Origin: Opitutus sp. GAS368
GTDB taxonomy: Bacteria; Verrucomicrobiota; Verrucomicrobiia; Opitutales; Opitutaceae
Length of the DNA: 54,813 nt
Assembly (NCBI GenBank): GCA_945903545.1
Contig: CAMDOO010000010.1
Coordinates: 1 to 54,813, forward strand
Direction of reading: 5' to 3'
Shown here: in pieces, positions 27,729 through 37,368 of the stretch
How positions within the stretch are numbered: the first letter of the stretch is position 1
How the letters are laid out: the number at the start of each line of letters is the position of its first letter
Translations under genes and position numbers: made by a program
Notes under the pieces: model-generated
Told to the model about the DNA's origin: nothing
Seen by the model: only the letters and a program-made list of their open reading frames with translations
The model's database searches: none

Positions 27729-28121
27729 GATCCTTCCGAGGTCGGGCGCGACGGTTTCGGTCCGCCGGGGTGGCATCCGGATTGGTTTCACGCAGAGAAG
27801 GCGCGATATGCGCCAAGACAGAGGGCGCAGAGTTCGGGCCCGAATGTTCGGATTCCGAAACCAAAACCCGTTCCGACCTCCGTTCGCTGCGTCTCTGTGT
27901 GCCAAAGGCTCGAAGGACCGAGCCGGCGGGCCCAGCGGTCCCGCCCTCTCAAGAAACATCCCACATCCCCGGGCAGGGGTCTGCCCGGGCTACACCCGAT
28001 CTTGATGCTGTAGCACCGACAGACCTCTGCCGGTGGATCGGTTTCTTTCCGGATAGGTCGCGCCTCAGCGCGGGTGCTCGCTACCCGGGAGCGGATATCC
28101 CAGAACGGCAGCAAGATTGCT
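27729..28121. other. Convergent intergenic region with two hairpin elements
   Basis: Between the kinase gene and the TPR protein gene, which converge. The first element (about 27784-27908) has CACGCAGAG/GCGCAGAG units on the left and CTGCGTCTCTGTG on the right. The second (about 27966-28050) has GGGCAGGGGTCTGCCCGGGC followed by GTAGCACCGACAGACCTCTG; it is the same family, inverted, as 35239-35307. No gene or T-run terminator is visible. Confidence 0.65.
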
Positions 28122-31719: not shown

Positions 31720-32319
31720 TCAGCCGCGTTTCGTGAGCTTCTTCAGTGCCTTGTTGATCTTCTCGAGATCACAGACGTCGGGATCGTAGTCGGGCCCGAC
31801 CCACTCGCGCCATTCGCGGCCGAGCTCGGTGGTGGGTTCCTTCAGGCAGGCGAGCATGTCATGGAAGGCCTCGAGCCCGCCACAATCCTCGGGCGGGCCG
31901 GCGTGTTCGCCCGCGAGGCAGACCGGATAGACCGTGCCCTTGGCGATGGGTGCCGTCTTCTCGATGCGCACATCGACCTGCCAGCCCTCGCCGAAATGGT
32001 AGCCGTAGGTGAAATGCTCGCGGGCACCGAGGTCGAGATCGGCCAGGGTGATGTCGCGGTCGTCCTCGATCGTCATCTCCTCGCGCTTGAGCGGGTTCCC
32101 GAACCGGAGGTCGTCGAGCGCGAAGGCGTGGGTCTGGTAGTCGAACCAGTCGAACGCGACCTGGAGGGTGTCGTGCAGATGGGAAAGCCACATCGACTCG
32201 CGCACGGCCACCCGGCGCCAGATGCGCGGCTGGCACCCGACCACGGTGCACCGCAGCGTAAAGACCCGCTCGACGGGCTTCCGCACCGGGGAGCCCTTGC
32301 CCTCGTGCAATGAAATCAT
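31720..32319 (-). CDS. Plasmid pRiA4b ORF-3-like protein
   Basis: A 199-residue cytosolic protein resembling the pRiA4b Orf3-like domain (PF07929). Blocks: VFTLRCTVVGCQPRIWRRVAV, then LSHLHDTLQVAFDWFDYQTHAF, and FTYGYHFGEGWQVDVRIEKT. Next is CLAGEHAGPPEDCGGLEAFHDM, with the conserved PPEDCGG of the family. The biochemical role is unknown. The name comes from a plasmid, but nothing here suggests a mobile element: the gene is flanked by housekeeping rsmD. I started at MISLHEGKGSPVRK; a longer in-frame start exists in GC-rich sequence. Confidence 0.82.
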   Translation of the reverse strand: MISLHEGKGSPVRKPVERVFTLRCTVVGCQPRIWRRVAVRESMWLSHLHDTLQVAFDWFDYQTHAFALDDLRFGNPLKREEMTIEDDRDITLADLDLGAREHFTYGYHFGEGWQVDVRIEKTAPIAKGTVYPVCLAGEHAGPPEDCGGLEAFHDMLACLKEPTTELGREWREWVGPDYDPDVCDLEKINKALKKLTKRG

Positions 32320-32589
32320 CGGGTGAATTGAACGGCCGCCGCCGCGCCCGGCAAGCCGGGGGTTTTGGGCGCGGCGCCCAAAACCCAAGCCGGCCTTTCC
32401 CGCCCGGGGGAAAGCCCGGGCGGACCGGGAGGCGCCGGACCTCGACGGGGAAGCATTGCGGCGGAGGCACCGCTACTGCCCTAGCCGCAAATTATCTGTC
32501 GGAGAAGGAGCCCGCTCGACAGCCTCAGGGCCTGAAGCGCGCCGGGCCGCTCGGGACAGCGGCCCCTGCCTTTGGGGGCAGGTTCCGGA

Positions 32590-34959
32590 TCAGAACTTCA
32601 GCTTCACGTACGCCTCGAAGCGGCGGGGCAGCTCGCGGAAGATGAGCTGGCTGGCGGTGTAGGCGTCGCCATTATGGATCCAGTTCTGCTCGTTGGTGGC
32701 GTTGAGCAGGTCGAGGTTAGCCGACCAGCGCCGGGTCGCGTAGAAGAGGTTGGCGTTGTAGAGCACCTGGGCGGGGATGTGCCACTGGTCGTCGAGGTTG
32801 CCGCGCTGGCGGCTTTGCCACTGGGCGTCGGCGCCGAGGCCGAAGCCGTTCGCCCACTGGTAGCGCGCGCTGCCGTTGAACATCGTCTTCGACAGGCCGA
32901 GGAGTGGATAGTCGCCGAGCGGGACCTGGTTGCCGAACGGATCGTAGCTGCCGGTCGAGGTACCGAGTCCGCCCGGGCCGCGGCCAAGCGCGTAGGCGGC
33001 GTAGAGGTTGCGGCCGCCGGCCTGGTAGGGACGCGAGTTCACGTAATGCCCGTCCTGAAACGTCGCGCTGGCGGTGGCGCTGAAACGCCGGCTTGGCTGA
33101 TAGGTCGCCTCGAGTTCGACGCCGCTCAGCGTGATATCGTTCCGCCGGCCGCCGAAGTTGATCTTGGTGCGGTCCTGCTGGAACCAAGTCGCGGCGGCGA
33201 AGACGCGGTTGTCGAGCAGCGCGGCCTTCACACCCGCTTCCTTGAGCTCGCTGAGATTGCGGAAATCGTTCCGGTTGATCTGGCCGTCGGGGAGATTGAG
33301 GATCACGCCGCCGCCGGTGACGTTGCCATTGGCGCCCTGCATGCGGTTGTGCGTGGCGTAGACCGTGAGCCGGTCGGTCGGCCGGTAGGTGAGGCTGTAG
33401 GCCTGGGAGAAGGCGCTCACCAGCTCGGTGTCGCTCCAGGACGTGCCGGAGAGATCGCCGAGCGGATCCTTCGCGCGGGCCCAGAAGGTGTCGTGACGCA
33501 GACCGACGGTCGCCGTGAGCCGGTCGGTCAGGCTGAGGTCCTGCTGCCAGAACACGCCGGGGTTCCACGTCTCGCTGCGCACGGTCTCGGGGCTGTCGTA
33601 ACTCGCGGGGAAGAACTCGCGGCCGCCGGGGCCGGTGAAACCGGGGAAGGTGCTGTTCGGGTACTGGGCGCGGAAGTTGAAGACACGCGACGGGTCGGTG
33701 AGGTCGAAGTTGTAGAAGTACTCGTTGAAGTAGTTCGTGAAGCTCTCGCGCCCCTCGTAGCGCACGGCGGCGCCGGCGATGACCGAGCTCTTCCGGCCGA
33801 GCATCGTCGTGAGCCAATGGACCTCGGTGCGGTTCTCGGCGGTGTACTGCTTCACGTACTCGCCGTACTCGAACTGGTGGAAGCGGCGGCGGCTGACGTG
33901 CTCGAGGAGCGTGCGGTTCACAACCTTCAGCGCGGGTGAGTAGACGTGCGACGCGGTCAGCTGCAGGCGGCCGACGTTGGCGTTGGAGAAGTCGCCCTTC
34001 GAGAAGAGCGTGGCATCCCACGGGAGCGTGACGGCGGTGGTCGCCGGGATCGGACCGGGCAGGCCGTTGTCGGCCGAGGCGCCGGTATAGTAAATGCCGC
34101 GGTCGATCAGGTCCTGGTTGACGCGATTGACGCCGAGGATCTCGGGGGCGGATTGCCAGAGGTACTGGGCGACGAGGTCGACCTGCGTGGCTGAGGACGG
34201 CAGCCACGAGAGGGCGCCGTAGACATCGAGACGGTCGTCGCGGACCTCGTTCTTGCGGAAGAAGGTATCGCCGCCCTTGGACTCGACGCTCACGCGCCAG
34301 GCGAGCTTGTCGCTGAGTGGCGCGGTGGAATCGATCTGAACGGAGGCGTTGAGGAAGCTCGTCTCGCCCGGGGCCCAGGTGCCGACACGGGTGGTGACCG
34401 TGGTGGCCCGGCCGTTAAACTGGGGGCGCTTGCTGGCGTAGTTGACGTAGCCGCCCTGGAAGTAGCCGACGCCGAAGACGGCGGAGGCGGGGCCGCGCAC
34501 GAGGTCGACGGATTCGACGCCGTTGAAGGACGGGAAGTAGCCGTAGAGATTGTAGCTCAGGCGCTGGCCGTTGAGGTAGGTCTCGGCCGTGTCGCCGCGG
34601 AGATTCGGCACGGTGGTCTTGCCGTAGCTCGCGCCGGCGTAGGCGCCGGGGGAGAACTGCAGGATCTCGCGCACGCCGTGGATCTGGCGCTCGTTGAAGA
34701 GCGCGGTGGTGAGGCTGCTGACGCCGCGGGGCGTGGCGAGCGGGTTGCGGTCGTCACCGAGCACGGAGGCCGTCTCCCGGGTGAGCGGGTTGATGGACTC
34801 CTCGATGGGAACGTCGGTGACCGTGTAGGGCGCGAGTTTGGTAACCGGCCCGGCGGCGGCCGGACTGGGAGACGTCTGGCCCAGGGCCAGCGTCGCGGAG
34901 GACAATAAAAGCCCGGCCAAGGTGGCGCGGACTGCGGAGGTTTGTGTCGGGTGCTTCAT
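32590..34959 (-). CDS. TonB-dependent outer-membrane receptor, predicted thiamin-related importer
   Basis: A 789-residue receptor that imports a scarce substrate across the outer membrane using TonB/ExbB energy. A Sec signal (MKHPTQTSAVRATLAGLLLS, cleavage near LALGQ) is followed by a plug domain (about residues 60-180) with ALFNERQIHGVREILQFSPG, NLRGDTAETYLNGQRL and VDLVRGPASAVFGVGYFQGG. The beta-barrel ends with RFEAYVKLKF, the terminal Phe needed for assembly. A TPP riboswitch precedes it in the same direction, so expression should fall when thiamin pyrophosphate is abundant. This implies thiamin or a precursor as substrate. The chosen ATG directly follows the riboswitch leader. Confidence 0.9.
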   Translation of the reverse strand: MKHPTQTSAVRATLAGLLLSSATLALGQTSPSPAAAGPVTKLAPYTVTDVPIEESINPLTRETASVLGDDRNPLATPRGVSSLTTALFNERQIHGVREILQFSPGAYAGASYGKTTVPNLRGDTAETYLNGQRLSYNLYGYFPSFNGVESVDLVRGPASAVFGVGYFQGGYVNYASKRPQFNGRATTVTTRVGTWAPGETSFLNASVQIDSTAPLSDKLAWRVSVESKGGDTFFRKNEVRDDRLDVYGALSWLPSSATQVDLVAQYLWQSAPEILGVNRVNQDLIDRGIYYTGASADNGLPGPIPATTAVTLPWDATLFSKGDFSNANVGRLQLTASHVYSPALKVVNRTLLEHVSRRRFHQFEYGEYVKQYTAENRTEVHWLTTMLGRKSSVIAGAAVRYEGRESFTNYFNEYFYNFDLTDPSRVFNFRAQYPNSTFPGFTGPGGREFFPASYDSPETVRSETWNPGVFWQQDLSLTDRLTATVGLRHDTFWARAKDPLGDLSGTSWSDTELVSAFSQAYSLTYRPTDRLTVYATHNRMQGANGNVTGGGVILNLPDGQINRNDFRNLSELKEAGVKAALLDNRVFAAATWFQQDRTKINFGGRRNDITLSGVELEATYQPSRRFSATASATFQDGHYVNSRPYQAGGRNLYAAYALGRGPGGLGTSTGSYDPFGNQVPLGDYPLLGLSKTMFNGSARYQWANGFGLGADAQWQSRQRGNLDDQWHIPAQVLYNANLFYATRRWSANLDLLNATNEQNWIHNGDAYTASQLIFRELPRRFEAYVKLKF

Positions 34960-34997
34960 TTTTGATGATGCCCAACCCAATCTGGACTCCCGAGAAA

Positions 34998-35030
34998 TGG
35001 GGCGCTGGCGCCCCAGGCGCTGGCAGCGCC
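34998..35030 (-). terminator. Two tandem hairpins between the TPP riboswitch and the receptor gene
   Basis: Read from the minus strand: GGCGCT-GCC-AGCGCC (35016-35030), then a perfect 8-base stem TGGGGCGC/GCGCCCCA with a 2-base loop (34998-35015) followed by only ATTTCTC. This could be the riboswitch expression platform, but the U-run is weak, so termination versus translation control is open. Confidence 0.5.
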
Positions 35031-35032
35031 CG

Positions 35033-35126
35033 CTGTTTCCTTCGTCGGCATGATCCGTTTCAGGTTCAAGGGTCGAGCAGCCGATCGTGCCGCAATCTCA
35101 GCCCTCCGCGGAGGACACCCCTACAG
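35033..35126 (-). promoter_or_regulatory. TPP riboswitch (THI element)
   Basis: The minus-strand sequence carries the conserved TPP aptamer blocks in order. CTGTAGGGGTG (P1/P2 side) is followed by GGGCTGAGATTG (the GGCTGAGA pyrimidine-binding box), then GACCCTTGAACCTGAAACG (the ACCC...GAACCTGA pyrophosphate-arm region), and CGGATCATGCCGACGAAGG (closing box). The terminal CTGT and ACAG can pair as P1. It lies 74 bases before the TonB-dependent receptor start. TPP binding would reduce expression of the receptor. Recognition is by direct match to the consensus; folding was not computed. Confidence 0.93.
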
Positions 35127-35238
35127 GCTGGGACCGTCAAACCGGTCCCCGCCTGATTACGCAAGCGAAAGGTTCGGCGCGGGACCCGAAAGGGCACATC
35201 TCACATTCTTGCAGCCCGCGTGAAATTTTCCCCGTTCG

Positions 35239-35307
35239 GATGTAGCGCCGGCAGACCTCTGCCGGCGGATCGGTCATCCACGGGCAGAGGTCTGCCCGGG
35301 CTACATC
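35239..35307. repeat. GATGTAGC ... GCTACATC inverted repeat
   Basis: Arms GATGTAGC plus CGGCAGACCTCTGCC and their complement GGCAGAGGTCTGCCCG plus GCTACATC. The element at 27966-28050 is a diverged copy in inverted orientation. Upstream of the receptor leader; function unknown. Confidence 0.8.
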
Positions 35308-35786: not shown

Positions 35787-35848
35787 CCAAAATGGCGCAG
35801 CCATTTTGGTTTCTAGCAGCGCGAGGGCAAAGCCCGACACGCTGCTAG
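35787..35848 (-). terminator. Hairpins at the end of the kamA-like gene
   Basis: CTAGCAGCG/CGCTGCTAG (35813-35821, 35840-35848) encloses GGGC-AAA-GCCC and overlaps the stop codon. Further downstream of the minus-strand gene is a perfect 10-base stem CCAAAATGGC/GCCATTTTGG with a 3-base loop (35787-35809). No long T-run follows, so these may be processing or termination signals. Confidence 0.5.
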
Positions 35849-37044
35849 TGCACCACGATTGACTCCACGCCCGGCGCGATCGGCGCGGGCGCGGCAGGAT
35901 CCGGTTTCGGTGCGGACTTCAGCGGATAAACAAAACGCTGGCCCTCGTAATTCCGGAAAGTCACGGCGTCGTCGGTGATCGATTCCACGTAGTCGGGATT
36001 GATCGGCACCTTGCCGCCGCCGCCCGGGGCATCGATCGTGAACTGCGGCACCGCGTAACCCGTGGTGTGGCCGCGGAGGCCGCGGATGATCTCGAGGCCC
36101 TTGCGCACGTCGGCCTTGAAGTGCGCGCCGCCGGTGATCAGATCCATCTGATAGAGATAGTAGGGCCGTACGCGCATGCGGAGCAGGCGGTGGACGAGAG
36201 CCTTCATCACCTCGACGTCGTCGTTGATGTCCTTGAGGAGAACGCTCTGGTTGCCAAGCGGCACGCCGGCAAAGGAGAGACGCTCGCACGCAGCCTTCAG
36301 CTCGACGGTGCACTCCTTCGGGTGGTTGACGTGGATGCTCATCCAGATCGGGCCGTACTTCTTGAAGATGTCGGTGAGCGCCGGCGTGATGCGCTGCGGC
36401 AGGAACACCGGGATGCGCGAGCCGATCCGGATGAACTCGACGTGCGGGATGGCGCGGAGGCGGCTAAGCAGGTGCTCCAGCTTCTTGTCGGACAGAAGCA
36501 GCGGATCGCCGCCCGAGAGCAGCACGTCGCGGATTTCCGGGTGCGACTCGATGTAACGCAGCGCGCGCTCGTGCTCGGGATGGAAATTATAGTCCTGCGC
36601 ATTCGAGACCAGCCGGCTGCGCGTGCAGTAGCGGCAGTAGGAAGCACAGCGGTCGGTAACGAGGAACAGCACCCGGTCGGGATAGCGGTGCACGAGACCC
36701 GGGACGGGAGAGTGGCCGTCCTCGTTCAGGGAATCATCGTTCTCGCCCTCCGAAAGGATCATCTCACCCGACCGCGGGATCATTTGCTTGCGGAGCGGGC
36801 AGTCGGGGTCGTTGACGTCGATCAGGTTGAAGAAATAGGGCGTGATCGCGAGGGCCAGCTTCTGGTTTGCGAAGGCGCAGCCGGCCTTCTCATCGGCCGT
36901 AAGGGTCATGTACTGCTCCAGCTGGTCGACCGTGGTGAGCCGGTTCTTGAGCTGCCAGGCCCAGTCCTGCCAGTCCGCCGCCGGAATATGCTGCCAATGG
37001 CCCTGGCCTTCAAACCAGACGGCGCGGTCTTCAATGTAGGACAT
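35845..37044 (-). CDS. kamA: Lysine 2,3-aminomutase (KamA family radical SAM enzyme)
   Basis: A 399-residue radical SAM enzyme that moves the lysine alpha-amino group to the beta carbon using PLP and a 4Fe-4S cluster. The cluster motif CxxxCxxC is CASYCRYC (Cys133, 137, 140). The Gly-rich SAM region DVLLSGGDPLLL follows. The PLP lysine is Lys345 in DAPGGGGKVP, and two aspartates that bind the lysine amino groups in Clostridium enzymes are present (YQMDLITGG and FTIDAPGG). EpmB-type enzymes are shorter, so this looks like a true KamA. The start at MSYIEDRAVWFEG fits the family; a longer frame would run through the upstream tRNA. No beta-lysine acetyltransferase gene is adjacent. Confidence 0.9.
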   Translation of the reverse strand: MSYIEDRAVWFEGQGHWQHIPAADWQDWAWQLKNRLTTVDQLEQYMTLTADEKAGCAFANQKLALAITPYFFNLIDVNDPDCPLRKQMIPRSGEMILSEGENDDSLNEDGHSPVPGLVHRYPDRVLFLVTDRCASYCRYCTRSRLVSNAQDYNFHPEHERALRYIESHPEIRDVLLSGGDPLLLSDKKLEHLLSRLRAIPHVEFIRIGSRIPVFLPQRITPALTDIFKKYGPIWMSIHVNHPKECTVELKAACERLSFAGVPLGNQSVLLKDINDDVEVMKALVHRLLRMRVRPYYLYQMDLITGGAHFKADVRKGLEIIRGLRGHTTGYAVPQFTIDAPGGGGKVPINPDYVESITDDAVTFRNYEGQRFVYPLKSAPKPDPAAPAPIAPGVESIVVH

Positions 37045-37146
37045 GAAAGAGCGCAGAGATAGCGCGCTTGGCGCCGGTGTCAAATGACCGCGCTGGTCCG
37101 GAATTGACCCCGGAGCCGCACGAAAGCTGATTGGAGGAGCGTAATT

Positions 37147-37222
37147 GTCCCCGTAGCTCAAATGGATAGAGCAGTCGTTTCCTAAACGGATTATCCCAGT
37201 TCGAGTCTGGGTGGGGGCACCA
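37147..37222 (+). tRNA. tRNA-Arg (anticodon CCT)
   Basis: A 76-base tRNA ending in an encoded CCA. Acceptor strands GTCCCCG and TGGGGGC pair in seven positions with wobble. The D-arm is GCTC...GAGC around AAATGGATA. The anticodon loop is TTCCTAA, giving CCT (reads AGG, Arg). The T-arm is CCCAG-TTCGAGT-CTGGG. The gene faces away from kamA. A second, degraded copy lies 75 bases downstream. Confidence 0.95.
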
Positions 37223-37296
37223 GCTAAGAAGCCTTGCCAGTTCTTGCCAGTATGGCGTCGTATTTTGAGGTTTTTGTGGGTTTCGAGGCGGTGACT

Positions 37297-37368
37297 TCCC
37301 TCGTAGCCCGGTAGGGTAGTATGTTTCCTAAACGACATATCCCGGTTCAATTCCGGGCGGGGGCACCA
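37297..37368 (+). pseudogene. Degenerate tRNA-Arg(CCT)-like copy, possible attachment-site remnant
   Basis: The 3' half repeats the functional tRNA: GTTTCCTAAACG is identical (37177-37188 versus 37323-37334), followed by a diverged TATCCC, an intact T-arm (CCCGG-TTCAATT-CCGGG), GGGGGCACCA and CCA. The 5' half is poor: the D-loop has only GGTA and the anticodon stem is not canonical. This looks like a duplicated tRNA 3' end, as left by integration at a tRNA, or a decayed tandem tRNA. Confidence 0.7.

Follow-up and report, generated by a model that had tools for sequence, protein, structure and literature searches.

Gene content and gene order suggest, with a probability of roughly 0.7, that Opitutus sp. 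GAS368 is an Opitutales thiamin auxotroph that takes up the vitamin through a TonB-dependent receptor controlled by a TPP riboswitch, a PnuT-like carrier, a NadR-like kinase and ThiL. The riboswitch and the receptor gene lie in the 54,813-nucleotide stretch of DNA that was analysed (hereafter, the window). The linkage of such a riboswitch to a receptor is itself already known from the omr1 and OMthi systems; as far as our searches show, the new elements here are the prediction of the kinase and the exchange of receptors.

The sequence-only reading had recognized a TPP aptamer on the minus strand by three boxes, GGCTGAGA, GAACCTGA and ATGCCG, all of which we located there. When the entire window was scanned with cmscan and the Rfam models, one TPP riboswitch (RF00059) was returned, at 35020-35132 on the minus strand, which covers the model over its full length (positions 1-105) with an E-value of 1.9e-8. 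Its score of 56.4 bits lies above the gathering score of 54.3 by a margin of about 2 bits. An RF00059 search of the own genome (3.08 Mb in 122 contigs, 98.64% complete) found no second TPP riboswitch, the next candidate scoring 13.4 bits (E 9.9). Plain minimum-free-energy folding did not distinguish the aptamer from its shuffles (z 0.51), and the same was true of a longer leader (z -0.24). What supports the aptamer is the covariance-model match together with the conservation described below; the element is almost certainly a functional TPP riboswitch.

The gene behind the riboswitch (32590-34959 including the stop codon, minus strand) encodes a TonB-dependent receptor of 789 amino acids, belonging to a family that we call B. 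Its Plug (PF07715, 38.6 bits; cut-off 23.9) and TonB_dep_Rec_b-barrel (PF00593, 48.5 bits; cut-off 27) domains bear out the earlier call of an outer-membrane receptor. The spacing of 74 nucleotides, counted from an aptamer end at 35033, is likewise correct, provided that translation starts at ATG 34959; this is most likely the start, because many relatives begin with an M(K/Q/R)LPTR-like sequence at the same place; the longest open reading frame opens earlier, at TTG 34980. As the sequence-only reading had stated, no thi gene adjoins the receptor. The scanned neighbours are a KamA-family radical SAM gene upstream (35845-37350, minus strand; NCBIfam TIGR00238, 363 bits), whose start as used here is probably too early, and a pRiA4 ORF3-like gene (31720-32388, minus strand; PF07929, 166.6 bits), an RsmD gene and an ApbA/PanE-like gene downstream. 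The KamA gene is a synteny marker kept in some relatives and stands outside the uptake system. The pRiA4 ORF3-like gene is also a marker kept in some relatives, where it lies downstream of both receptor types. Contamination of the window was rejected, as both markers flank the same riboswitch-receptor unit in some relatives. The description of the receptor as lone fits the locus but fails genome-wide, since a PnuT-like carrier, a NadR-like kinase and ThiL are encoded elsewhere.

By its own sequence the receptor weakly resembles siderophore receptors. NCBIfam gave partial matches to siderophore receptors far under their cut-offs, and the best matches of a receptor B profile were again siderophore receptors. 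A phmmer search of the PDB with the single sequence gave no match, and in plasmid records no match exceeded about 30% identity.

Between the aptamer and the start codon, a G+C-rich hairpin (34998-35015, TGGGGCGCCAGCGCCCCA) is followed by TTTCTC (34992-34997), and a pattern test marks the two together (34992-35015, minus strand) as a terminator-like expression platform with a weak U-tract. A hairpin rich in G+C and followed by a T-rich tail occurs in 16 of 45 leaders, the own one included, as compared to 0.7 expected from dinucleotide shuffles. These 45 leaders comprise the own and those of 44 riboswitch-bearing loci in named genomes (see below), and two of the 16 positives (L180 and L192) are doubtful, ending in a T-run beside the start codon. 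In a stricter promoter and terminator scan, neither a sigma-70 site nor the hairpin upstream of the start codon was reported, and folding prefers a longer, overlapping hairpin in the same stretch of the leader (-24.7 kcal/mol, z -2.4). In addition, CGGGAGT (34986-34992, minus strand) may form the 5' arm of a helix straddling the start codon, with its 3' arm at 34948-34954 and 6 of 7 pairs possible in the own leader. The same heptamer can pair fully (7 pairs) with codons 2-4 in 18 of 51 leaders of both receptor types, a set in which the starts of L183, L190 and G028 are misplaced. When the 3' arms were dealt among the rows the mean was 10.4 of 51 (largest 14), so the agreement is mostly shared sequence; a letter-shuffled arm gave a mean of 2.4 (largest 6). 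The start-codon helix is thus offered as a suggestion. From this arrangement we infer that TPP represses the receptor gene, mainly by termination, with translational control possible as well. Four loci with receptors of the second family, A, and a leader type other than the own (L069, L070, L071 and L073) carry another hairpin, GGATCTCA...TGAGATCC or one closely similar to it, which sits right before the start codon and could mask the ribosome-binding site.

The sequence-only reading had proposed a search of related genomes for the same linkage. We assembled 57 genomes, namely the own (G000), 2 of the same genus, 34 of the family and 20 of the order, thus 56 relatives. RF00059, run with the stricter filters used for more than 40 genomes, gave 53 matches in 47 of them. 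Apart from the window's own riboswitch and a 31-nt fragment at the edge of a contig, the remaining 51 were read, and the first gene behind them encodes ThiC in 18 cases, receptor A in 14, receptor B in 14, ThiM in 4 and an SSF-type carrier in 1. A Pfam check confirmed the four ThiM as hydroxyethylthiazole kinases (250-276 bits) and the carrier as a sodium:solute symporter (SSF, 69 bits), and likewise the three ThiC and two A receptors that were scanned. Counting the own, riboswitch-linked receptors occur in 29 of the 57 genomes, 14 with A and 15 with B, and none of the 57 carries both types behind a riboswitch. The linkage is conserved, with 14 receptor B orthologues located behind this riboswitch in other genomes and orthologues extending down to about 40% identity.

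A second set was obtained by scanning named genomes with the receptor B alignment, where 104 places were confirmed and the best 80 of them yielded 71 loci. We took 53 of these as Opitutales (titled Opitutaceae, Opitutae, Opitutales, related genera or Verrucomicrobia; at least 43% identity), and the set overlaps the 57 genomes, as at least 11 of the 53 are on the same contigs. The other 18, at 24-36% identity, belong to Pseudomonas and other Proteobacteria, with one Methylacidimicrobium. Among these best 80 of 104 places, RF00059 reached its gathering score before receptor B at 44 of the 53 Opitutales-like loci (17/18, 13/16 and 14/19 in the three batches) and at 0 of the 18 distant homologues, of which 15 are informative because L226, L236 and L244 have less than 200 nt upstream. 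Among the nine Opitutales-like loci without the riboswitch, four (L181, L202, L213 and L221) start inside the receptor, two (L203 and L212, the contigs from G011 and G034) score 54.1 bits in the 57-genome search, and three (L199, L220 and L222) are unexplained. Both Cephaloticoccus capnophilus CV41 (L207) and C. primus CAG34 are among the named carriers that are not metagenome-assembled. The latter species has two receptor B copies on one 10-kb contig (L221 and L222), and the stretch before the second copy holds no riboswitch at the gathering score.

Searches of the own genome for ThiC, ThiD, ThiE, TPK and ThiK gave no match, and ThiL is over its cut-off (G000:C68:2638-3462). TPK (PF04263) is present in 5 of the 57 genomes. 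ThiK was over the cut-off in 0 of 57; it was probed with one narrow model (TIGR02721), so another thiamin kinase could exist. ThiC was found in 3 of the 29 receptor genomes (G006, G010 and G036) as compared to 20 of the 28 others (Fisher p 2.5e-6, kinship ignored), and within the own family in 3 of 23 as compared to 13 of 14 (p 1.9e-6, kinship again ignored). In G001 and G002, which belong to the same genus, the riboswitch precedes thiC and no match to receptor B, PnuT or the kinase was obtained, which is the reverse of the own genome, indicating that the change occurred inside the genus. Several of the 57 genomes are incomplete. Incompleteness as the cause of the losses was rejected, given the 98.64% completeness of the own genome and the same gene pattern in the single-contig genomes G005 and G022. 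Altogether, 21 genomes (the own and 20 more) possess receptor, carrier and kinase and lack ThiC, ThiD, ThiE and TPK, where ThiD matches of 43-49 bits (G009, G024 and G033) were scored as absent and sub-cut-off matches of 72-192 bits (G010, G018 and G037) as present. ThiL is over the cut-off in 18 of these 21 core genomes, below it in 2 (G003 and G021) and not found in G024. G047 has a ThiE match with neither ThiC nor ThiD.

The second component of the predicted route is a carrier of the PnuC/PnuT family (PF04973; G000:C18:43807-44343, 149.6 bits), after which comes the gene of a 183-residue P-loop protein with an AAA_28 domain (G000:C18:44443-44991; PF13521, 110 bits), the NadR-like kinase. 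This pair is on a contig other than the receptor's, where no TPP riboswitch was found. PF04973 is over its cut-off in 26 of the 29 receptor genomes and 4 of the 28 others, and kinase homologues occur in 25 of 29 and 2 of 28, respectively, again with kinship ignored. In the latter two, the G014 kinase is 30% identical and joins G005b and G016b in a second group (support 92/94, with long branches, thus weak), and G029 is an 89% complete genome with no riboswitch receptor, no ThiC and no riboswitch match. Kinase and pnuT are separated by at most 232 nt in 24 of the 27 kinase genomes, and three genomes (G010, G021 and G047) have the pair in divergent orientation next to a riboswitch-receptor A unit. 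Among the receptor genomes without the kinase, G033 and G038 have TPK and no ThiL over the cut-off (35 bits; partial, 78 bits). The other two, G040 and G049, carry receptor B with ThiD and ThiE, have neither ThiC nor PnuT, and may import HMP through the same receptor family. Because the kinase is complementary with TPK, adjoins the carrier and stands divergently beside riboswitch-receptor A units, we predict it to be the missing thiamin kinase.

The cargo had been predicted as thiamin or a thiamin precursor. The thiamin part is supported, as the linkage is conserved and tracks the loss of ThiC. Like thiamin receptors of the OMthi/omr1 type, the receptor stands behind a TPP riboswitch, here in a predicted auxotroph with a PnuT-like carrier. 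The precursor part is unlikely to apply here. ThiC, ThiD, ThiE, TPK and ThiK were not found and ThiL is kept, so the cargo should be thiamin itself; without the first three among the genes found, HMP or thiazole would be unusable by known enzymes in the own genome. A receptor for HMP or a breakdown product would suit G040 and G049, which show the pattern of HMP users, but we consider it improbable, given that none of ThiC, ThiD, ThiE and TPK was found in the own genome or in 20 further genomes that have receptor, PnuT and kinase, where imported HMP would not be convertible to thiamin by the enzymes searched (ThiD matches of 47 and 48.5 bits in G009 and G024 being scored as absent). Even further from credible is a chance match, in which a degenerate or dead aptamer lies before an unrelated siderophore-type receptor: the same order recurs in orthologues as divergent as about 40% identity but in none of the 18 distant homologues. 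In favor of a chance match are the score barely over gathering and the weak NCBIfam likeness to siderophore receptors, far under cut-off. It is very probable that the receptor imports thiamin or its phosphates. A probable cargo can hence be given to a receptor family that otherwise resembles siderophore receptors only.

The carrier and kinase admit two further explanations. They might form a nicotinamide riboside system that co-occurs by ancestry, with thiamin crossing the inner membrane by another path. The family names favor this: NCBIfam assigns the carrier to PnuC, the nicotinamide riboside transporter (TIGR01528, 94.8 bits against 42.45), and the kinase matches NadR below the cut-off (TIGR01526, 98 against 341 bits, confined to model positions 164-324 of 325, the first half having no counterpart in the kinase). 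The two proteins could accordingly act in NAD salvage. The best solved relatives are PnuC (4qtn) and NadR (8x7f/1lw7). However, the pair is divergent beside the riboswitch-receptor A unit in three genomes, and neither same-genus relative, G001 or G002, has a kinase match. Moreover, all 23 main-group kinases among the 26 rows compared bear the motif E[FYA][VSA]R instead of EYGR, which is found in the three second-group kinases and in NadR 8x7f; the rows do not include G003, G027, G029 or the second kinase of G021. We regard a nicotinamide riboside system as a serious minority reading, with perhaps one chance in four. A less likely explanation is that receptor and carrier import TMP or TPP and the kinase serves NAD salvage. 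The retention of ThiL without TPK or ThiK, over the cut-off in 18 of 21 core genomes, agrees with phosphorylated cargo, but direct import of TPP would leave ThiL needless, and the kinase tracks the receptor (25/29 against 2/28) and is missing in both receptor genomes that bear TPK. In addition, PnuT is described as a thiamine facilitator (in a title cited by PMC7221760, and in PMC5613172). On balance, with co-occurrence and gene linkage pointing to thiamin, the carrier is probably PnuT, the inner-membrane partner of the receptor, and we lean towards the NadR-like protein being a thiamin kinase. A missing enzyme would thereby become testable, namely the thiamin kinase of bacteria that keep ThiL and have no TPK or ThiK by these models.

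These assignments can be combined into a route. At low cellular TPP the receptor gene would stay on, and at high TPP the ligand would bind the leader and turn the gene off through early termination of transcription, possibly also by masking the translation start. The receptor, energized by TonB, would carry intact thiamin across the outer membrane, and the PnuT-like carrier would pass it across the inner membrane. The P-loop kinase encoded beside pnuT would then convert thiamin to TMP, also trapping it, and ThiL would convert TMP to TPP.

In E. coli, thiamin is salvaged by ThiK and ThiL in two kinase steps, from thiamin to TMP and from TMP to TPP. The proposed route has the same two steps, but here no ThiK was found and the proposed kinase is AAA_28/NadR-like. 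Kinase and carrier belong to the same sequence families as the ribosylnicotinamide kinase domain of NadR and PnuC, whereas their occurrence here is linked to thiamin auxotrophy and EYGR is replaced by E[FYA][VSA]R. For the comparison with Bacteroides thetaiotaomicron, we take Tnr3 to be a TPK. In that species, as described in PMC5613172, the TPP-riboswitch-linked receptor OMthi (BT2390) and pnuT-tnr3, where tnr3 beside pnuT is given as a thiamine pyrophosphorylase, were genetically tested, and the riboswitch-linked OMthi and pnuT transcripts were hardly altered by thiamin. By gene context, the present system resembles the OMthi system in having a TPP riboswitch before a TonB-dependent receptor and PnuT as the predicted inner-membrane partner. 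It differs in that B. thetaiotaomicron, according to the same paper, has tnr3 beside pnuT and intact biosynthesis, whereas here a NadR-like kinase is present, ThiL is kept, and TPK, ThiC, ThiD and ThiE were not found. The marine omr1 is a putative B1 TonB-dependent transporter with a riboswitch nearby in SAR86 and Flavobacteriales (PMC10881298), and Q26GT5 served as the Omr1 query in PMC10470507. The likeness to omr1 lies in the nearby TPP riboswitch and the TonB-dependent receptor; this comparison is by description, and receptors A and B are mutually distant. Uptake based on omr1 is reported for Opitutales, with its specificity called unclear, in PMC12442306, and the present analysis adds detail on a lineage dependent on others for vitamin B1. 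We found no paper on a NadR-like thiamin kinase with PnuT in the open-licence PMC literature, and none there on in-place receptor exchange by queries without that term.

The second new element concerns the site of the receptor gene. Receptors A and B are 15-23% identical over residues 41-290 in the pairs compared, as against 65-80% within each family. The KamA gene lies within about 4 kb upstream of 6 of the 15 B loci (own, G011, G017, G025, G036 and G049) and 4 of the 14 A loci (G006, G020, G023 and G028), and the pRiA4 ORF3-like gene within about 9 kb downstream of 7 of the 15 B loci (own, G005, G016, G017, G019, G027 and G030) and the same four A loci. Both markers therefore flank receptor B in the own genome and G017, and receptor A in G006, G020, G023 and G028. 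The remaining loci show one marker, none or a short flank, several of them having been read for only 1 kb upstream. Between G023 (A) and L198 (B; on a contig of G025), aptamer and leader are 92% identical and codons 1-12 are 97% identical; identity then falls to 60% over codons 13-33 and 21% over the protein body. As compared to the four other A loci examined, G023 is 67-82% identical in the leader and 66-75% in the body. The leaders of the remaining A-B pairs are 60-86% alike, about as within A. Since distant receptors A and B share site, riboswitch, leader and first codons in some genomes, the simplest reading is that the receptor body has been replaced in place, with a junction inside the signal peptide. 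The ThiC-bearing genomes G035 and G012 show an empty site, where KamA and pRiA4 are about 1.2 kb and 0.26 kb apart with no receptor and no RF00059 match between them; the stretches from G008 (only 1.8 kb before pRiA4), G004, G018 and G013 contain pRiA4 without KamA. If this reading is right, outer-membrane receptors would be replaceable while their regulation stays put. We give even odds to the joint proposal that the NadR-like protein is a new-family thiamin kinase which, with ThiL, replaces TPK, and that one chromosomal site carries a fixed socket for the exchange of distantly related receptors, made up of the riboswitch, its leader and the first dozen or so codons, with the junction within the signal peptide.

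Several minor observations accompany these results. In a small genome (G041:C3:12908-13024, L116), a TPP riboswitch of 37.7 bits, under gathering, lies directly before an SSF-type carrier. G033 (L103, L251) has a 35% identical homologue of this carrier beside receptor A, together with TPK and with no PnuT over the cut-off. The SSF-type protein is a candidate alternative thiamin carrier. A row of genes in G016 (C387:13382-16648, L150) encodes another NadR-like kinase, a receptor that shares 36% identity with B and a carrier resembling PnuC, and possibly represents a TonB-dependent nicotinamide riboside route.

In the window itself, a tRNA-Arg(CCT) at 37147-37222 is followed by a degenerate second tRNA-like copy at 37297-37365, which is not called by ARAGORN and passes Rfam by 0.8 bits. 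A palindromic repeat around GGCAGAGGTCTGCC gave 7 matches on both strands at 5 places with at most 2 mismatches, where 1.03 were expected. Its sites include window positions 35250-35296, 27972-28031 and 2106-2119, and one pair is located some 120 nt upstream of the TPP riboswitch.
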